Shown piece after piece: positions 42,797-54,200 of a stretch of 64,000 bases of DNA. Source of the stretch: Amylostereum areolatum. Its lineage: Eukaryota; Basidiomycota; Agaricomycetes; Russulales; Stereaceae. A program made the position numbers and the translations under genes. Below the pieces are notes generated by a model, which did not search any database, was not told where the DNA came from, and saw only the letters and a program-made list of their open reading frames with translations. Location: the NCBI GenBank assembly GCA_012932865.1, contig SAXG01000023.1, positions 667,814-731,813 on the forward strand, read 5' to 3'. How positions within the stretch are numbered: the first letter of the stretch is position 1; each line of letters opens with the position of its first letter.

Positions 42797-43555
42797 TCAG
42801 AACCCGCCCAGACAGCCGTCGAGCTCGGGCGCGGCGAACTCGCTCCTGCGCAGGGCGGGCGCGTGGACGCGGTGCGGCCGCCGCCGGCCGGCCGCGCTCG
42901 GGCTGCGTTTGCGGCCGCGCTCGAGGTGGGCGTGGGCGTGGTCGGCGGGGTCGGGCGCGTGCGGGAGGAAGCGGGCGCGGTGGGGGGGCGGGGCGGGCGG
43001 GGAGAGGGGCTCCGGGGGGGTGAGGATCGCGTCGGATTCGTCGGACTCGGAGGAGGAGATGTCGGGGACGAGGGCGGGGACGGGGATGGGGACGGGAGGG
43101 GTGGGGGTGGGGGTGGGGAAGGAGGAAGGGCTGGTGGGTTCGCGTTGGCAGGCTTCGTAGGCGCGGGGGTGGAAGTAGCTGCCTTTGATGGACGCGGGGG
43201 ATGGGGAGGAGGAGGAGGAGGGGGGAGGACCGGGGGTGAGTCTGCGTCTGCGGGGCCGATCGGGGCTGGGGGTGTATGTGCGGTCGTTGCGATCGGGGAG
43301 GGCGCAGAGGTTGGGGGCGACGGTGATGGGGGCGCGGTCGTAGGTGTGGCGGTCGTGGGTGAGGTGGGTGGAGGTGAGGTTGGGGGTGGGCGGGAAGTGG
43401 ACGTGGGTGGCGGGGACGGGGTAGGCGGCGAAGGGGAAGGGGAAGGGGTCGGAGGGGAGCGGGAGGTCGTGGTCGTGGTCGTGGTCGTGGCGGAGGCAGG
43501 GGCGGAGGGAGTGGAGGGAGTAGTGCAGGTGCGGGGGTGGATGGGGGGGAGACAT
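42797..43555 (-). CDS. Conserved Pro/Ser-rich protein of unknown function
   Basis: Intronless frame of 252 aa from the ATG at 43555. It is not just a GC shadow: it contains specific blocks such as THLTHDRHTYDRAPITVAPN, CALPDRNDRTYTPSP, KGSYFHPRAYEAC and VPDISSSESDESDAILTPP that fit a conserved agaricomycete family with these blocks in the same order, as I recall. A His/Asp repeat (DHDHDHD) follows the N-terminus, and a basic region (RGRKRSPS) near the end may be a nuclear signal. Function unknown. The transposon described below begins about 350 bp upstream of its start. Confidence 0.68.
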   Translation of the reverse strand: MSPPHPPPHLHYSLHSLRPCLRHDHDHDHDLPLPSDPFPFPFAAYPVPATHVHFPPTPNLTSTHLTHDRHTYDRAPITVAPNLCALPDRNDRTYTPSPDRPRRRRLTPGPPPSSSSSPSPASIKGSYFHPRAYEACQREPTSPSSFPTPTPTPPVPIPVPALVPDISSSESDESDAILTPPEPLSPPAPPPHRARFLPHAPDPADHAHAHLERGRKRSPSAAGRRRPHRVHAPALRRSEFAAPELDGCLGGF

Positions 43556-43904
43556 TTCTGCGGACGGGTATGAGCGGGGACGAGGGTATTGCTGCTGCTG
43601 CGCTTGTCGTGCGTCGTCGTCGTCGTCGAGGAGGCGGAGGCGGCGGAGGAGTTGAGGGAGAAAAGAGAGAAAGAGAAGGAGGGAGGAAGGAACCGGATGC
43701 TTTTTATTTCGGCGAGCAAGCACAACGCAACGCAGCGCAACCCATCCAGGGCTCGCGACCTATTCCTCCAGGCACCGCTCCGCTCCGGCTTCCCCTTCCG
43801 CCCGCCGTCTCCTCGGTCTCCCACCCTCCCCGCCATCCCACCGGGTCGAGCAGTGGGATCACGCGCACGGCGTACGAGCGTATCCCCAGTCGGTGGTTAG
43901 GCTA
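43556..43904. other. Upstream region of the Pro/Ser-rich gene
   Basis: Short spacer up to the left inverted repeat of the transposon. It includes the direct repeat AGTCGGTGGT at 43888-43897 that recurs at 50252-50261. Confidence 0.4.
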
Positions 43905-43953
43905 CACCAAAATCAAGGGCTCTCACGGGACGAGAAAATAGCCTTTTTAGGAC
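43905..43953 (+). repeat. Left terminal inverted repeat (49 bp)
   Basis: Begins CACCAAAATCAAGGGCTCTC and ends GCCTTTTTAGGAC. The reverse complement of 50150-50198 matches it in 46 of 49 positions, with mismatches at the 9th, 21st and 30th bases. Similarity stops sharply on the inner side. Confidence 0.92.
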
Positions 43954-44106
43954 AGGGGGCGGTGTCATAGGAAAGAGCGTAATTCTCCACATGTTGTCAT
44001 TCTCCTACCGTAATAGATAGAACACGTGCATTATTGGGTCCAAGATCTGTTCAAAAAATTATCTTATCTACCAACAAGTCTTCTCCTCCTCGTAACATCT
44101 CTCATA

Positions 44107-46476
44107 ATGGCCGACTGTCCATCCTTCAGAACTCCAACAGGCCATGAATACATTAAGGATAAACTAAAACAAGTCATACCACAATGGCCTAATGGCCCGC
44201 ACGACTGGCAGGTTGAGGCAACCGCCAATATCCTGTGCAAGATAGATCAACTCATTATTGCAGGGTGCGGCGAGGGGAAGACGGCAGCCATGTACCTCCA
44301 TGTTCTCCTTCACCGTACCCTAAGCGAGAATCCAAGTCTTCCTCGCTTCGGACTGGTTCTCAAAGAGCGGCCTGTGGTCCTGGATGTGACACCCCTGACT
44401 GATCTCGCACAGAGCCAGGTATGAATCCATGTTCTGTAAACGAGGCAGTCAGGATAACGGCAAAGTAGGTGGCTGAAATGAATGCAATGGGTGTACCTGC
44501 AATATCCCTCGATAAGAAGACTGTTGAACGCGCAAGGTCGGAGGAAAACCGAAATGTCTACCGAGAAATCGAACGCGGTGAATGGAGAGTTGTCATTGTA
44601 TCACCTGAAAGGCTGAAGTCTCCCGAGCTTGGCCGCATACTCCGGAACGATGCCTTCGTCGACACCTTATCATTGTTGTCTCTAGACGAAGCCCATGTCG
44701 CCTGCCCGTGGAGCAAAGACTTTCGAGTCGAGTACGATATTGGAAGCCTTTGTCTTGTGCTTCGCGGACGGGTCCCAATCCTCCTGATGACAGCAACCTT
44801 GACCAAGGAAGGACAAGCCACACTCCTGCGCCTCACAGGACTTCGCGAAAAGGCATTCATCACCATTCGACGCCCTATTGAACGACCTAATATGCGATTA
44901 GTATTTTGTACCCTCCACCACGGCATTGGTCCCAAGGTGAAGAATTTCCCGGACATTGCATGGGCAGCTAGGGGGGCAAAGAAGGTGGTTATCTTTGTCG
45001 GAACGCACAAACTCGCAATACAAGTGGCCTCCTACCTGTGGCGCCTCCGTCCACCGGGCGAGGCTCAGCGGCGACGCAACATCCGCATCTATACAGGTGT
45101 AACCGAGGAGGGGAAGACTGCGTCAACAATCATGGAAGATTTTGTCAATGATCCCGAGACTTTCGTTGTTGTCGCCACAATCAAATTTGGGATGGGGGTG
45201 GACTCACTTCGAAATATAGCCATCGCGGTGAACTTCGGAATTCCAAGGACACCGGAGACACTTCTTCAGCAGCTTTGCCGCGCGGGTCGCGATCCAAACA
45301 TGCTCGCTGCAGGGATCACATATGTTCAGGCATCGTATGTCTCAGCTGTAGAAGACGCACCAGAGCAGGACCATCTATCCGAGGGGGACGAGTCAGACGA
45401 CGGGGAGCGCAGAACGAACGCCACCTCGGGTGGAAGCAGAAGAGAAATGGCGGCATCAAATCATCCGAAAGATTCGGATTCAGCGATGGCGAATAGAGGG
45501 ATTCGACGTCTTGTCCGCGCACACGCTCGCCGTGAATGTTTGGTGGTCGAGATCAACCGCCTGTTTGCGGGACCTTCTCCTCCTTCCCACGCACTGGCTT
45601 CTTGCCTCGAGGCTAAGCGCGCACTACCGTGCTCAAGCTGCATCCACCATCTTCCACCGACTTCTCGCCCCCCTCTTCTCATGACCGCTCCCCTTCCTGG
45701 CCATACTCCACGCCCGCAACTCGCAAACGTTCCGATGGACGATGACGGCATGGAGGCCTTCGACGACGACGACGCGCCGGACCTCATCACAAAACATCCC
45801 AAACTTACCCAAGAATTCGCCCTCGAAGCCGGCGAGGAACTCGACGAGTTCTGCCAAATGCGGTGGTCACTGAAGCAGTCGAGTGACGCGGCTGTTCGTC
45901 CTTGGAGGTCGTATCTCGGTGCACCGTTGCGCACGGCGCTCCTCAAGGACTTCCACAGGGTGCGCGATCGGGAGGAGCTGGCCCGTGTTTTGATCGACTG
46001 GAGGTACCTTGACGAGGATGGGAGTGCACTCTGCAATCTCGCTCGTCAATTGAACCAGGAGTTCGACGAACGACGAGAGCAAATGCTAGAGGAACGAGCG
46101 CGAAAGGCGGCGGCGACGCGTGCGGCCAAGAAACAGGGTACGTTCATCCATCGGTTTCCGCTTTCTTGACCCTGATGCCGTTAAAAAGCGACACGGGATA
46201 TACGATCCACTGAATCGGCAGAACGAGCAGGGCTTCAACCCAGGCTTCAAGCGGCGGACAACCGCCTCCCCGCGCCCAGGTACGTGGTGTACTTTTCGGT
46301 GCCACAACACATATATCGACTGACGGGCTGTCCCCAGAACGCCCACACACCCCTGTCACATCTTTTCGGCGGACGAAAACTCGCCTACAACGCATCACCA
46401 GGAGTCTCCTTGTCGGTGGGTACGCGCACGTAGCGGGAGTGTCATGGATTCACCCTCCAAGCGACGTAGGACATGA
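44107..46476 (+). CDS. RecQ-like superfamily-2 DNA helicase (transposon-borne)
   Basis: ATP-dependent 3'-5' helicase-like protein of 736 aa. Exons: 44107-44418, 44469-46137, 46189-46279, 46338-46476 (the third exon could start at 46222 in the same frame). Motifs in order: DWQVEA with the Q at 35, Walker A GCGEGKTA (53-60), DEAH at 177-180, TAT at 212-214, VVVATIKFGMGVD, and motif VI QLCRAGRD at 371-378. A Cys-containing segment (CLEAKRALPCSSC) follows the helicase core, where RecQ proteins carry a zinc-binding subdomain. The C-terminus ends SPSKRRRT, a nuclear-localisation-like motif just before the stop, which supports the splicing. No HRDC domain is visible. The start was chosen at the first ATG before conserved sequence. 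Confidence 0.92.
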
Positions 46477-46506
46477 GGTATGTATCATACCTCGTGGTAT
46501 TTTTGA

Positions 46507-49500
46507 TTATGCTAACAAAACACCGTTCTCGAAGGTAATGGGTGGCTCTAAATACATAGTAGCATCCTCATACCCCTCTGGCATCAAAGCCTCCTCCGAC
46601 ATATCTGCCCAGTCCTCCCACCCTTGTGCGATGTACTCCTGTAGTTTACCTTCATCCAGTAGTTTGTAACCCTCGTTGTAATCGTCGCGCGCTTGAAACC
46701 CAAGGTCGCGACCGCTCCGTTTGATGTGTAGATCATTTCGCGAACATATTTGGATCCCGACGGCCAGCTCGTTGTTCGTGTGGGGCTCGCTGTGTCGCTT
46801 CCGCCGCTCTTCCAACCGCACATTGCGTTCGATGGCTCGCACAAGACGAAGGAGATGGTGGACATGCATGGACAGGGTTTCACGGTACCATTTATCGTCA
46901 AACTCTTTTCCTTTGTGCTGAGCGAGCTCTTCTAGCCAGTGATTAAAATGCTCTTGCATGAGATCCAGTTCATGGAAGTGGCCCGGCTTTCCTTCAAGAT
47001 TGACGAGCATGTTGGCGAACAGCCCCGTTCTGGTGGCCGTCGGATACTCGATCTCCAAGTTGCAGAACTGTTCAATGAGGTAGCGAGTGTAGTGCGAGTT
47101 CCCGGCCCCTGCGAACGTGAAGATCCACACCTGTAACATCCGAACGGTAAGAAAATCGTCCCATTAACGTGGCATCAACAAGACACTTACCTTCAAGATC
47201 TCCCAGACTCGGCCGCTATCCCCAATGCTCACTGAACGGACCAATTCCAAGTAGTGGATCCCATCACGCATCAGCATACAGCTGTTGGCGAGTGCACGAT
47301 CCCCTTTGAACACCTTCGCGCGACGTGTCGGTAGTGCCGACTTCTTTTTCTTTTTCTTTCCCTTCTGCCTGGTAGACAATGATGATTCGGGGAAGAGGGA
47401 ATCGTTCGAAGGTGGTACATCCCAGTCAGGACCGCGGGGGGCATCTGTGATAGAGGTGATACCTTCGGTCGGTGGCTGTAAAGCGCGGAGGTACGCGCCC
47501 TCGCTGGAGTATCGTTGGGTCAGAAGTTGTGCGTCCGACAGGAGGGCCACGAGAGATGGTAGGCGATCGGCATCTTTCAATGCTTCAAAATGTTCAACGA
47601 GATCCTTGCCCGTCCCGCGCAAGCCTAGGAATACTCTGGACGAGGTTACGTCGCTTAGTAAGTACACCTTCATCGACGTAAAAACTGAAGTTGACACGTA
47701 CACCCAACAGTCCAACATGTGAGCCTCAACTACGATCTTCAACGTACGGGTATGCGTATAGAAATCGACCTTGTGGAAGTCTGATGGTGTCGGGCTGTTG
47801 ATTGCCGTCGCAATGTACCCAAGCGTCGATGGGTCCTTCCGTGCGTGTTCGCCACCCCAATATGTTCGGAAAATCCGACTGAGGCCTGTCCATTTCGTAT
47901 GCCAGATCTCCAGGACGGGCCTGACAAAACGAAGAGAATCGAAGGACCCGAGAGCTTCACCGCTCAACACCCTCTTCACCTGCATGATCCCCTCGAACGA
48001 CTTTCCGTCCCCGGATATGAACTGGAGGCGGCTGCCGATGGTCTCCCCATTTAGACCCAGATGACCAAGGAAGTCCAGTATAGCTTGCTTCATGCCACGC
48101 GTCGAAACCTCCTGGGCTGCATTCGTGCCGAGAGTATGAACCTCCGTTTTCCGGTGAGGGTTGATTTGGTGTTTCTTCGTGTTCTCTCGGAACTGACGGT
48201 CAACCTCAGCACGATAGATCGAGAGCGCAGGGACGTATTGCACCAAGACTTCGACCCAATGGTACCTATGCACGGTCTCGATGTGTGCAGAGTCGATGAG
48301 GTCCAGAATTCCCTCCGTGGTCAAGTCGTTCCTCTTCCCGGCCTCAAGATTGTCCAGGATGGGCTGTAGCTCGAACGCACCCGGGGGACAGTCCTCCATC
48401 ACGACAGCAGTGGCACCCGTTCCGGTGGCCATCTTGTTCTGGGTATTTAGGCGCACGTCGCGGCGCCGAAGGTATGCTTGAATGTTATCGAGTACGATCC
48501 ATACAGGTTTCGCTGCGGGCCCAGTGCACAACGTCTGTAAGAACTTCCGCTTCTGTTCCGCCATCACATTCAGTGCATTGATCACCGACGAATAGGATAT
48601 GGTTTGTCCAAGACGGCTCCCGACGCGAAACATTGCCTGGTGGGCTTTGGAGGCAAAAAGTGACAGACCACGACACAGCTGAAACAGGTTCGTCCAGGAG
48701 TTTCTACTGAACGTAATCTCGCTCATGATACTTGTGCAGACCTAGGTCATGTCAGCGGAAGTTTTAGACACCAGCACAATATGCAACGACGAACAATATC
48801 TTTGGGACGATACAGCGCACCGCCGTCGCTGTCATCTCCATCAGAGTGCATGTCGTCATTGTCGCTGTCAGTGTCCGAGTTTGTCCCGGAGCCGCCTGTT
48901 CCCCGTTCCAAGGCTTGACGTCGACGGCGGCGTTGAATCAGTGCCGAAATCAGACACCAGGTCACAGGTGCGCGCAACCGATACACACCAGACAGGTCAC
49001 GGAAAGAAAACTGATCGATGATAGACCACGATACCAGTGGATCCTTGATGGTGTGGGTGCGACGTCGTGTTCCTGTGGCTCCTTCAGGTGCGTCTGCTCT
49101 CGCTCCATGTTCATCTGTTTGTATTCCAACACCATCTGCAGCTTGTCCAGCTCCAGACGCCACCTGAGATGGCATCGATTCTTTCTGCATCGAGGCGCGG
49201 ACGCGCAAGCCGGCCTCCTTCGACACACACAGGTCCTCATTTTCTTCTTCCATTTTCCGCAGGACTTGACCGAATGCCCATGTAGACAATGCAGGTGCTC
49301 CGTAACACAAGCGTGCAGAAAGGTCATCTGGACACATGAAGTACATGTCCCGTTCTGGATCGCCGGGTGGAGGTCGACTGTATGGATGCGTGTAGATCTT
49401 CTCGACGATGTCCACAACATCACCCCCGCGAAGGAATCGTCGCACGAACTGGGCCTGCGAAGAACTTCCTTGCGGCAAGTCGTGACGAAAGAGGTGTCCG

Positions 49501-49849
49501 AGGAACGTGCCCAAAGACCAGCCGGTTTTTTTGAGAGCGCCGAGAACTGTGGCCATCTTCTCTTCGTCCTTTTCTGCTTGAGGTCGGTCGTCTCGTTTCC
49601 GTTTCTTTGCCGTGTTGCTAACACTCTATAAGGGTGATTTAGGTGTTTGCAAAAACCTAATCCGCGACGGTAGCTTACCTGGGAGGCTGGAGACGGTGCA
49701 TACTGCCGGAAGGAAAAATCCATCGCTCTCTGCGGTGTCATGGTCGGAGCTGCTGTCTGTGAGAGTCCCGCCTCGTTCGAATCCGTTGCTGGATGCTCCG
49801 TGCCGCCATGTTGTCCTTCTGCCTCTCGGAGACCCTTCAAAAAGATCAT
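46507..49849 (-). CDS. DUF6589 protein, candidate transposase
   Basis: Protein of 1036 aa. Exons (high to low): 49849-49679, 49625-48795, 48741-47702, 47635-47191, 47130-46507, all in phase. DUF6589 hallmarks include WIVLDNIQAYLRRRD (Asp near residue 419), FISGDGKSFEGIMQVKR (Asp near 579), PVLEIWHTKWTGLSRIF, a MLDCW motif before the third intron, and a C-terminal block FTFAGAGNSHYTRYL..., MQEHFNHWLEEL and IKRSGRDLGFQA. A basic KKRKRDDRP stretch in the second exon could direct it to the nucleus. The two conserved aspartates and a later glutamate would suit an RNase-H-like DDE nuclease, but this is my inference; the family has no function that I know of. A longer frame from 49982 exists in another phase and may hold an additional first exon. 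Confidence 0.88.
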
Positions 49850-50149
49850 CCAATATGTCAGTTTGCGATTGAATGATAGCCATCATTGCGGCTTCGAGCC
49901 ACATTACCTCTCTTCCTTCTTCGTCATTTTGTGCACTTGAACCAAAGAACATTGAAGCTTCACCCCATATTCCGGAAAACATGAGGACAACGTATCGTAG
50001 ATTCGTGTGGCTTGGTTTGGGCGACGCGCAAGCCAGCGAGCACTAGTGAGCACTCCGTCGAAAAGGATGACAGAATTACAATTACACTATCTCGTACATG
50101 ACTATGACACATCTAGTACGAAAGCCCCTCGAAAGCCCCTTCGCGCGCC

Positions 50150-50198
50150 GTCCTAAAAAGGCTATTTTGTCGTCCCGCGAGAGCCCTTGCTTTTGGTG
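50150..50198 (-). repeat. Right terminal inverted repeat (49 bp)
   Basis: Begins GTCCTAAAAAGGCTATTTTG and ends CTTTTGGTG; the reverse complement of the left repeat at 43905-43953 with three mismatches. Confidence 0.92.
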
Positions 50199-51298
50199 CA
50201 GACCTTATACTCAGAACGACTGTCTTCTGAGTTAGGTCAGCCACGGAGACTAGTCGGTGGTCCAGCTTACGGCGTGCGTTTTGTTGGCGTTGCCGTTATC
50301 GCACCCCCCTCCCACCGCCAGTTCCATCTCTCTTCGCGTTCGCGTGCACAACGGGGCGCCCGGCGTGCATGCTACTGTATCGCCAACGCATCCATGCCAG
50401 CACCGTCCTGCGGGTGCATCACCACACGCGCAGATTAGATTTCGTGGAGACACCGGGGGGTACCGGTTCTCACCCCACCGTCGGGCCCCGTCCCCATCCC
50501 CATCCCCATCCACGTCGGACACCGCACCCGCGAGTGAGAGTCGCACCAGAAGGGAAGGAAGAAAAAAAAAAACCCTCCATCCCTGCAGGCAGCAGGACAA
50601 ACCCACAACTTGTATTAGTTACTGTAAGTTACCGGTCTCCAGCTCCTTCCTTTCCGAGCCGACCCCCACCATCGATACCGGCGTCGTGCCCGACAATGAA
50701 ACCTTCCCTCCCTCCCCCCCTCGTCGGCTCTCCGCCCATTGGCGCGATAATCGACCGGGGGGCGGTCATGCGACATTGCGATCCGTCCTTAGTCTCGCCG
50801 GGACGTCCGTTCTAACAGCATAATCACCCACGGGCCACAGTACACTTCTCGCACGCACGCACGCACGCACGCGCGCACCACCGGGCGGAACCCCCTTACG
50901 CGATTAGGGGTGGTGGGGGGGGGCGATTATCAGACTGGAAACGGCGGTAGAGCTGGGCCCCGGGATGTTGGAATGTGAACAGGCCAGAGTCGAACGCGGC
51001 ATGCATGGCCCATCAGAGATGCCTTCCTCCGCACGAGATCGAGAAGTGAATGTGGGCGTGGACGTGGATGTGGATGGGTGCATGTGGCGAAGACAGAGCG
51101 GCCGCGGGATGTACGTACCATAACGAGAGGACGGGAACGAGGACGAGGACTGGACCGTTGCGTTGTGGCGTGAGGCTATACTGTACATGGCATGGAATAG
51201 AAAGAACTGGGCATGGCAAGTGCGAAAAAAATTCAGAAAGCGTGACGCCGAACCGACACATAGCGAAAATCCCTCAACGATCTCCACCGCGCACGCGC
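50199..51298. other. Intergenic region beyond the transposon
   Basis: Holds the second copy of AGTCGGTGGT (50252-50261) and the 3' flank of the DUF726 gene. Open frames here look like GC shadows. A short ACGC repeat occurs near 50856. Confidence 0.4.
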
Positions 51299-54200
51299 TC
51301 AACTGTCCCACGGATTCGCGAGATAGCTCGGCGGCGTCTTCCGCGCCGACGTCCCCCACCCCTCCGCGCCCCCGCCCGCGGTCTGAATCCCGCCCGCCGC
51401 GTCCCCAAACGACAACGTCGGCCCCCGCCCAAACCCAAACCCATACACGTCCTTCTCCGGCGGCTCCGGCGCCCACCCCCCCGCAAACCTCGCCCCGCTC
51501 TCCCCCTCCCCCTCCCGCTCCCGCTCCCTTATCGCGCCCGATCCAAACCCAGCCCCGAACCCGTCCGCGAACCGTGACGTCACCGCGCCCTCCCTCTCCC
51601 GTTCCTCCTCTGACTCCCCCCTCCCCGCACCGAGGGACAAAGTCCGGGAGAACGTCGTCGCCAGGTCCCGCCCGTGGTCGCTCCTCCCCAGGGCCCCAAA
51701 CCCGCCCGTCGGCGTCCGCGATCCCCCCATCCCCATCCCCATCCCTCTCCCCCACCCTCCCTCCTCCTCCTCCTCCTCCTCCGCATCCTCCCGATCCAAC
51801 GGCGGCGGAGCCGAGTGCGGTCGCACCCCCGACGACGACGACGCGTACGGCTCCCTCAAGCTCGACGCCGCCGCGGTATCGATCGCCGGCGGGATCGGCG
51901 ACTTGGGCGGCGGCACGGGCGACACTGCGGACGGCTCCGCGCCGCCGATGACCGCCTTCATCGCCGCGAGGTCGAAGCCCGCCTTGGCGGGGAGCGCGCC
52001 CCCCACGTCGTCCTCGCCGTCCCCGCCCGCGCCTTCTCCCGCTGCCGGCGCGTGATCTGGGTCCGCAGCACCCACCGGGGACGCGACCTCCCGCGGCGGC
52101 AGCTCGTCCTCGTCCGCGCCCGCGCCCGCGGGGGGGACTTGGCCGATCGACGCCGCGCGTCTGTACGTGTCCGCCGTCGGGGGGCGGGACACGTATCCCT
52201 GCGACCGTGCGTGCCCCGGCTTGCCCGCGGACCCGGAGGACTTGCTCCGCGAGAACCACCCGCGCTTCTTCGGGAACTCCTCCCCCTCCGGCACGACGAT
52301 CCTGTCTTCGTCGAAGTCGGGCACCTGGCGCAAAGAAGGAGCGGCGGGGTTTGGTTTCAGTGGTCGGTCGAAAGTTTGCCCAGGCAAGGAAAGAGAGAGA
52401 GGGAGAGAGGGAGAGAGCGAACGCGTACCTCCGGCTCGTCGAAGTAATCCGCCGACACGGGGAACCCGAGCTGGTCGAGGATGAGCGGCATGAACGTTCG
52501 ATAGCTCATGTGCCCCGAGATCTTGTCCGTCACGTCCACGTTCTCCAGCCCGGGCACGTTCTCCACCGGCCGCAGCCCCGCCACCGTCTGCAGCCCCCCG
52601 CTCGTCGCGCGGAACAGGTAGTTGAGCACCCAGTCGTTGCGCGCGTAGCAGTTCACGAACCGGCCCGAGACCGCGGCCCGCGCCTGGAACCACGTCCGCT
52701 GCGAGGCCGTCAGCGTCGCCCCCGAGCAGGAACACGTCCTGCACGATCCCGAACGCGCGCTGGCGCGCGAGCTCGAGCAGCGCGTAGAAGATCACGCGCG
52801 CGCCGAGCGAGAACCCGATGAGCGTGATCGGGCGCACGCCGAGGTGGCGCTGGATGAGCACGTCCGCGAGCACGCTCCCGGCCGCTTTCGCCCTGTCGAG
52901 CGCGTTCGACCAGGGGTTGTCGATGAGGTATCCGAGTTTGGTCAAGACTGCCGTGAAAAGGGGGAGACAGAGAAAAAAGGATGGCTCAGATTAGGGGCGT
53001 CGGCGGGAAGGGGGGAGAGAGCGGTTCGACGTACTGATCGGCCATTGGAGGGCACTCATGAGCGCGGTCATCACCGTCGCTTGCAGCACCGTCGTCCCGA
53101 TCTGCGAGAGCACCTCCGAGGTCAGGATGCTCAACGCGCTGCCCGTCTCCCGGATCATCTCAGGCTCCCACAGCACGCTGAACACGTCCCCGATGATGGG
53201 GTCCAGCACGCTGAACGGCAAGCGCGGGTCGTCGAGCTCGCCGGTCATGAACCTGGTTTTCCGCAGCGCACGCATTCGTCAGCTCCGACGGCCTCGCAAG
53301 ACGCGCGAACGGAGGGACGCACCCGGGGACGGTGAGGATGCAGTTGACCCGCTTGTTGTTGTGGAGCGGGAGCACGTCGAACGTGCGCACGCTCTGCGTC
53401 CTTCGCGCCATGCCCTTCGCGGCGATCCCAGAGCCCGTGAGGACGCCCCCCGTCGTGATCACCGCCGCTCCAGCCGTTCCTCCCAGGAAGCCCGCGGTCC
53501 CAGAGATCCCGACCGTCGTCAGCGCCGCTCCCAACCCCGCACCGATCACGGGCGCGAGCAGGCCAGCGGACAAGCCGATGACGAGTCCACCCCCTGCGAC
53601 CCCCATGGCGTGAGCCGTATGCAGATAGCTTGGGGAGAAGGAGGCGTACCCAGCGTTGCGAGCCCCATCATCACGTACCGTCGCTTCCGAGAGGACTTTT
53701 GGCGGTCGGCCACGATCTCGCGCTGTTCGAGGCTTTCGACACCCTCTTGGATCTCCAGCGCCTCCGTCACCCGCTGCTCGAACTTGACCACGTCCAGCCA
53801 GCCCAAGCCGAGGTGCAGCGCGACTTGCTCCAGGAGCACGCGCGAGCGCGCGTCGTAGACGCTGTCCGCGATGAGGATGAGGAAGAGATCGCAGAGGACG
53901 GTCCATCGGATGTCCAGCGTCACGTTCTCGTCCGCGGAGGACAGCGTGGTGGATACGCCGGGCATCTGCGACGCCGTGGTATCCTCGAGAACCCGGGCGG
54001 TCGTCTGGAAGGTCTTGTTGAGTCCGGCGGAGGGGGGCGGGGTGAAGGGATGGTGGGATTGAGTGGGCGTGGTGGGGTCGACCAAGGTGATCTCGGAGAT
54101 ATCGTCGGACTGGGCCGCGGACAGATCCTGGCGGGCGCGCTCCTCCTCGTCCTCGTGCCGTTTCTCCTCCTGCCGACGGGCCTCCTCGGGATCGTACTCG

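Follow-up and report, generated by a model that had tools for sequence, protein, structure and literature searches.

A 64,000-nt stretch of the Amylostereum areolatum assembly GCA_012932865.1 (contig SAXG01000023.1), here called the window, holds an element in which a RecQ-like helicase gene on the plus strand and a DUF6589 gene on the minus strand lie convergently between inverted repeats, with nothing else between them. Coordinates are positions in the window unless another contig is named. The repeats, at 43902-43961 and 50142-50201 (60 nt, 88% complementary), form the longest inverted pair within 43000-51500, the runner-up being 38 nt at 74%. A preliminary description had recognised inverted repeats around two tail-to-tail genes, had listed all helicase motifs as present and had both genes splicing in phase; this was borne out, with the motifs read and frames of 736 and 1058 amino acids open after conceptual splicing. 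The features of the locus are as follows.

43889..43897, no strand: left target site duplication GTCGGTGGT, 9 bp, present as a single copy at the empty site on contig C40
43898..50252, no strand: complete transposon, 6355 bp, tips TAGGCTACACC ... CCACGGAGACTA, delimited by flank comparison
43898..43961, plus strand: left end with inverted repeat, from repeat search and tip comparison (the left repeat of the preliminary description begins at 43905)
44107..46476, plus strand: RecQ-like SF2 helicase gene, exons 44107-44418, 44469-46137, 46189-46279 and 46338-46476, 736 amino acids
46507..49849, minus strand: DUF6589 gene, presumed transposase, exons 49849-49679, 49625-48795, 48741-47191 and 47130-46507, 1058 amino acids, start codon uncertain
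50142..50201, minus strand: right inverted repeat, from repeat search (the right repeat of the preliminary description)
50198..50241, no strand: right-end hairpin, 44 nt, inner stem ACTCAGAA/TTCTGAGT, loop CGACTGTC, outer stem GCaGACCT/AGGTCaGC
50204..50252, no strand: 49-nt right tip, the longest remnant at duplicated solo hairpin sites, with a putative second-strand cut at 50203/50204
50253..50261, no strand: right target site duplication GTCGGTGGT, from flank comparison

Ends, empty site and copies in the assembly

Copies were sought across the element's own assembly (57 Mb) with the left repeat and the whole element as queries. In a 789-bp copy on C117 and in others, the common right end extends past the right 49-bp repeat that had been described at first, which rules out that those repeats are the tips. 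Comparison of flanks among copies set the tips at TAGG on the left and GACTA on the right, so that the element extends beyond the early repeats by 7 bp on the left and 54 bp on the right. Owing to an extra hairpin in the right end, the two ends agree at their outermost tips in TAGkCT alone. The element thus delimited (43898-50252) begins TAGGCTACACC, finishes ...CACGGAGACTA and is flanked by a perfect 9-bp target site duplication, GTCGGTGGT, at 43889-43897 and 50253-50261. On contig C40 of the same assembly both flanks are joined at a single GTCGGTGGT, with 308 of 311 aligned positions identical; since the flanks are 98% identical, C40 was taken as the second haplotype, and the plain reading is an insertion carried by one of the two haplotypes. 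The checks proposed in the preliminary description, namely exact ends with a target duplication from aligned copies, and an empty site, have thus both given a result. The window element can be regarded as a recently inserted, young and apparently intact two-gene transposon. Two ordinary host genes lying between repeats by chance would agree with the intact frames of both genes after splicing, but the empty site refutes this; dispersed two-gene units and a second element on C34 with its own duplication also stand against it, and we give it practically no weight.

The C34 element (L053, minus strand), 6284 bp long, is complete at both ends, matches the window element in both genes and is flanked by a 9-bp duplication, ACCTTTACC. 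Identity to the window is 34-46% over the transposase pieces and 37-58% over those of the helicase. Across the genome there were at least 112 matches to the DUF6589 family (PF20231), merged to at least 58 loci, and at least 52 helicase matches, merged to at least 46 loci, some of the latter being short (55 to 150 amino acids) and weak. Counts from the genome searches are lower bounds, with 102 of 130 candidates scored for DUF6589, 61 of 75 for the helicase, 40 of 43 for joined flanks and 40 of 109 for right ends, and some loci on separate contigs may be two haplotypes of one site. A helicase match lies within 6 kb at 36 of the 58 DUF6589 loci (the window counted), where 0.65 pairs were expected by chance, and together with the C34 element these pairs supply the further copies with both genes that had been proposed as a check. 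In every one of the 36 pairs the two genes occupy opposite strands, convergently in 29 and divergently in 7. The divergent ones (C170, C128, C66:427034, C70, C145, C94 and C111:357360) indicate that gene order has been rearranged within the group.

Eighteen elements for which both ends are present were compared for target duplications; besides the window element they comprise a 789-bp one and 16 that measure 1074-1084 bp. The copies of about 1.08 kb have only end sequences in common with the window element. Perfect duplications of 9-10 bp flank 16 of the 18 (twelve of 9 bp and four of 10 bp; among the latter, L029 lies within a G run and is ambiguous in length). The remaining two (L035, L040) are inverted 1084-bp neighbours at C56 ~247,720-250,160 whose 10-bp duplications are swapped, as is expected from inversion of the short stretch between both elements. 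As a control, 304 of 306 cross-pairs matched over 4 bp or less, the other two (10 bp) being this swapped pair. When the flanks of 16 complete elements (L003, 14 of the 1.08-kb kind and the C34 element) were joined, at least 8 matched uninterrupted on another contig at 84-97% identity (coordinates only), which suggests that the insertions are young. A distant family with DUF6589 and a helicase (C141:133801-140124, L058; copies on C34, C111 and C1) has duplications of 8 bp at four copies (CCGGCGAG, GGGAAATG, CTCACAAC and GATGAGGT); the right end of a fifth copy was not obtained.

The two genes and their relation to known transposons

The helicase gene has four exons and a frame that is open after splicing; the splicing is conceptual, and the last two exons are the least certain. 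Pfam places DEAD (3.3e-13) and Helicase_C (2e-6) domains on it, both over cut-off. Matches to PDB chains comprised RecQ, WRN, RecQ5, BLM and RecQ1 (best E 1.2e-19, residues 90-390), with RecQ, WRN, RecQ5 and BLM the closest relatives by sequence. The motifs read AGCGEGKT, DEAH, MTATL and GMGVD, with QLCRAGRD as motif VI; among five relatives from the same genome, motif VI is QYFGRAGRD or QYDGRAGRD in three, and the pattern had no match in two.

The DUF6589 gene also has four exons with a frame that is intact after conceptual splicing, and its two main exons match PF20231 at 2.3e-77 and 4.4e-40. An alignment of seven domains (the window and six relatives, with the intron residues of the relatives trimmed by hand) has eleven invariant columns: E111, L128, D145, H180, G195, L411, N413, G416, D425, Q428 and E429, in the numbering of its first row. 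In a wider set, E545, D579, D815, D842, Y865, N895, D907 and E911 (window numbering) do not vary among the sequences that reach these positions, 15 or 16 in each case. The aspartate of an LDN motif, residue 419, lies outside the stretch shared with the aligned relatives. Such invariant acidic residues would be compatible with a DDE nuclease and are no proof of one, and the protein is presumed to be the transposase. A pattern search for relatives in viral contigs gave 36 matches, of which none was confirmed, and DUF6589 was named in no paper found in the literature search. Pfam assigns no function to this domain, which occurs at no fewer than 58 loci here and is now tied to mobile elements with defined ends and duplications. 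Gene models with DUF6589 can therefore be relabelled as likely transposon genes.

We are confident that the window element is of the AcademH type. AcademH was reportedly described by Kojima in 2020 as Academ superfamily DNA transposons with a helicase. Terminal inverted repeats are likewise a feature of AcademH; here they measure 60 nt at 88%. The AcademH transposase is of the Academ DDD/E type; in DUF6589, the observation on this point is the set of invariant acidic residues in the seven aligned domains. The helicase, with its DEAD and Helicase_C domains and its RecQ-group matches in PDB, and the duplications, 9 bp in the window and 9-10 bp in 16 of the 18 elements, both agree with this type. 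In the passages of citing papers that concern AcademH, its target duplications are given as 9 or 10 bp (PMC10045372) and its families as low-copy in Basidiomycota, Ascomycota and Mucoromycota (PMC10799480). A helicase beside a gene of transposase size, duplications of this length and occurrence in fungi including Basidiomycota are thus the points of likeness (PMC10045372, PMC10799480), and a comparison on these descriptions gives no certain difference. The preliminary description had suggested a distinct transposon type. That it is a mobile element stands, given the copies and the empty site; that the type is unknown does not, since the element fits AcademH. As far as the citing papers convey it, AcademH has already been described and the window element is a further member rather than a new type of transposon.

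Other transposons that resemble the element in part were also considered. The nuclease of AcademX is XPG. According to a passage in PMC10045372, AcademX has a nuclease instead of a helicase and duplications of 3-4 bp. In the window element Pfam found no such nuclease domain, and the duplication is 9 bp. Kolobok elements duplicate TTAA. KolobokH is a fungal DNA transposon with a RecQ helicase downstream of the transposase domain (PMC9587614). Although KolobokH and the window element both have a RecQ-type helicase, and inverted repeats are present here, the helicase of the window is encoded apart, by a convergent gene on the other strand, and not as a downstream part of the transposase protein, and the duplications are 9-10 bp and not TTAA; gene layout and duplication length rule KolobokH out, and its probability is very small. 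Helitrons have a hairpin near one end and encode a helicase, and they combine a HUH Rep domain with a Pif1 helicase and are not known to make a target duplication. In contrast, the window element has target duplications and inverted repeats, and by Pfam neither the helicase nor the DUF6589 protein has a Rep/HUH or Pif1 domain. A Helitron is ruled out by this result and the 9-bp duplication.

The right-end hairpin and solo hairpins

The right tip of the element equals the left tip plus an insert of about 47 nt, and this insert folds into the hairpin listed above, which has no counterpart at the left end. Its outer stem has the consensus GCnGACCT/AGGTCnGC, and its loop, CGACTGTC, reads GACAGTCG on the opposite strand. 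Compared with shuffled sequences, DNA folding of the right end gave z -2.2 in the window and -3.1 in the C34 element, as against -0.2 for the left end. Among five right ends compared, the inner stem is altered on both sides at 2 pairs; it reads ATACAGAA/TTCTGTAT in L104 and, when the gap is set by eye and not as the aligner placed it, AACCAGAA/TTCTGGTT in L046. A related family on C23 (L059), whose left tip recurs at seven places, has a hairpin at either tip (z -6.6 on the left and -2.8 on the right); it has inverted repeats, and a duplication of 10 bp flanks the copy examined. The 8-nt loop GACAGTCG is identical in the window right tip (50198-50241) and the left tip of this two-hairpin family, while the stems differ; three related tips (C76, C160 and C139) have other loops.

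The hairpin was also found without an element. A search with the hairpin pattern (up to 3 mismatches) gave 56 places, and none with the reversed pattern. Eighteen of these belong to complete elements already counted, and the other 38 and one found locally, 39 in all, were examined. After exclusion of four complete right ends (L081, L098, L104, L108), two further members of a tandem (L049) and four places where another contig shows a site already counted (L080, L093, L094, L107), 29 solo sites remain. Outside the pattern set lie L046, a complete right end with a one-base deletion, and four places similar to it (C66:823682, C34:555097, C26:9989 and C3:25737).

Duplications of 8-11 bp flank the solo hairpin at 23 of the 29 sites, 19 of them exact and 4 with at least 9 bp and one mismatch, whereas only 5 of 1474 controls with swapped right flanks reach 8 bp. 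Wherever a duplication was found, the right edge of the remnant is the exact element tip. The left edge varies: remnants at the 19 exact sites measure 49 (six), 48 (two), 47 (two), 46 (one), 45 (two), 43 (one), 42 (two), 41 (two) and 40 nt (one), and those at the four one-mismatch sites 49, 49, 45 and 40 nt, with an error of one or two nt possible wherever the repeat happens to continue. None of the 23 exceeds 49 nt, though 36-74 nt were allowed.

Two sites bear on the origin of the solo hairpins. On C2 (L048) a solo hairpin lies between TGCAAACGT repeats, and on C27 (L007) the left end of an element begins at the same target base, followed by a long terminal repeat (LTR)-like repeat, in flanks that are 93-94% identical over 1.49 kb. 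Insertion of an element and its later loss from one haplotype is the simplest account of this one case. At a C105 site of the two-hairpin family known from C23, 45 nt of the left tip and 38 nt of the right tip (8 nt missing near the end) are joined between GATTCCGTT copies; L105 has a variant stem. The one-hairpin kind hence retains one tip and the single two-hairpin case both, which fits a cut of the non-transferred strand behind each hairpin. Elsewhere, at C23:899504-899639 (L049), three right-tip remnants lie in tandem between CCCTATCCC repeats.

We consider it probable, at odds of some three to one, that solo hairpins are excision footprints. If instead they were one-ended insertions, in which the right end was joined to the target and only 40-49 nt were copied or transferred, they would be tiny mobile elements. 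Solo hairpins do have duplications as full insertions do, the C23 tandem resembles repeated insertion, and the L042 site lies in a repeat of which other copies are uninterrupted there. Against one-ended insertion, the C2 and C27 counterparts have their target site in common with a larger element and C105 keeps both tips of the two-hairpin family. Moreover, left edges that vary over 40-49 nt and remnants from more than one family (the variant stem of L105) indicate that the remnants are not one mobile unit. We hold this explanation to be improbable.

Proposed excision and its alternatives

Taken together, the observations are best explained by a cut-and-paste transposon of the AcademH kind with a staggered right-end cut and a helicase, for which we put the probability at roughly 0.7. 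The absence of remnants longer than 49 nt suggests that the cut lies 49 nt inside the right end, and a single long staggered cut as the cause of the solo hairpins has, in our estimate, an even chance. The nick that the DUF6589 transposase makes in the transferred strand would fall precisely on the CTA tip, and at the right end the other strand would be nicked about 49 nt inside the element, directly behind the hairpin; the left end would be cut at or near its own tip. RecQ helicases move 3' to 5'. About 49 bp would stay paired unless unwound, which would be work for the element's own helicase: the RecQ-like enzyme would unwind the stretch between the staggered nicks, and hairpins formed on the separated strands might hinder re-annealing. 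The excised copy would retain the full right strand and insert elsewhere with a stagger of 9-10 bp, and the donor site would be sealed by end joining, leaving 40-49 nt of the right tip between two duplications. The footprints favour a role of the helicase in excision. The full proposal, that AcademH excises by a ~49-nt stagger at its hairpin end, needs its own RecQ-like helicase and leaves a folded footprint of 40-49 nt, is put forward tentatively, at somewhat below even odds.

A precedent may exist in the P element, where the second strand is cut 17 nt inside and long 3' ends result (PMC7776569). If the footprints are read correctly, AcademH would resemble it in that the transferred strand is cut at the tip and the other well inside, with long 3' single strands; differences would be the putative stagger of ~49 nt at one end here (17 nt in P), the hairpin inside the stagger and the element's own helicase. 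PMC10045372 suggests that the unequal duplication lengths of AcademH and AcademX are related to the helicase and the nuclease which they respectively encode. Among the matches listed in the literature search, there was no paper on Academ excision or on hairpin footprints of such a kind, and no tested account of why helicases occur in some eukaryotic DNA transposons. A measurable prediction follows from the hairpin end and the footprints, namely the nick positions on both strands and the dependence on the helicase.

Abortive gap repair in an AcademH-type element is a less likely origin of the solo hairpins. Here both ends would be cut flush and the break copied from the sister, starting from the right; once both hairpin arms had been copied, the nascent strand would fold, detach and join the left flank. 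This would account for remnants reaching into the hairpin or just past it and for their precise right edge, and no unusual cleavage is required. However, left-end remnants should then be equally frequent, and the sites examined showed no more than two or three bases of a left end (a TA in L083, L086 and L087 may be such a remnant). The retention of an element-encoded helicase would also be left unexplained. We regard it as having perhaps one chance in four.

Several results weigh against the AcademH excision model that we prefer. An empty allele alone cannot separate insertion from precise excision. Helicase matches within 6 kb are missing at 22 of the 58 DUF6589 loci, and 10 of the 46 helicase loci stand alone. 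The DUF6589 profile gave five matches against PDB, the best with E 0.036 and none a nuclease, and a structure predicted from the single window sequence reached a predicted local distance difference test (pLDDT) score of only 36.8. Stem covariation is modest, with 12 of 500 shuffles of the five sequences reaching the covariation score and 160 of 500 the pair count. In the C141 family the right end folds no better than shuffled DNA (z -0.4), and duplications are 8 bp and not 9-10 bp. Six of the 29 solo sites (L049, L050 on the minus strand, L085, L088, L095 and L099) fall under the duplication threshold, two of them (L049, L099) with 7 bp, and a single excision does not account for the tandem at L049. 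On C27, the 10 kb examined did not contain the right end of the element copy, and a search of 13 of 18 solo sites found a second haplotype for none (a partial match for L043), which leaves the C2/C27 pair on its own.

A 19th element, on C56, has a 9-bp duplication, ATCCGCTCG, and is interrupted by a nested TA-flanked transposon of 4021 bp. The latter (C56:64937-68957, between L081 and L006) has perfect inverted repeats of at least 40 bp (CAGCCGTTTGCATAACC...) and, with a TA on either side of it, occupies a TA within the right-end hairpin of a 789-bp element. For L006 and L081, an inversion broken within the hairpin was considered and is ruled out, the 789-bp element being split by the nested transposon.

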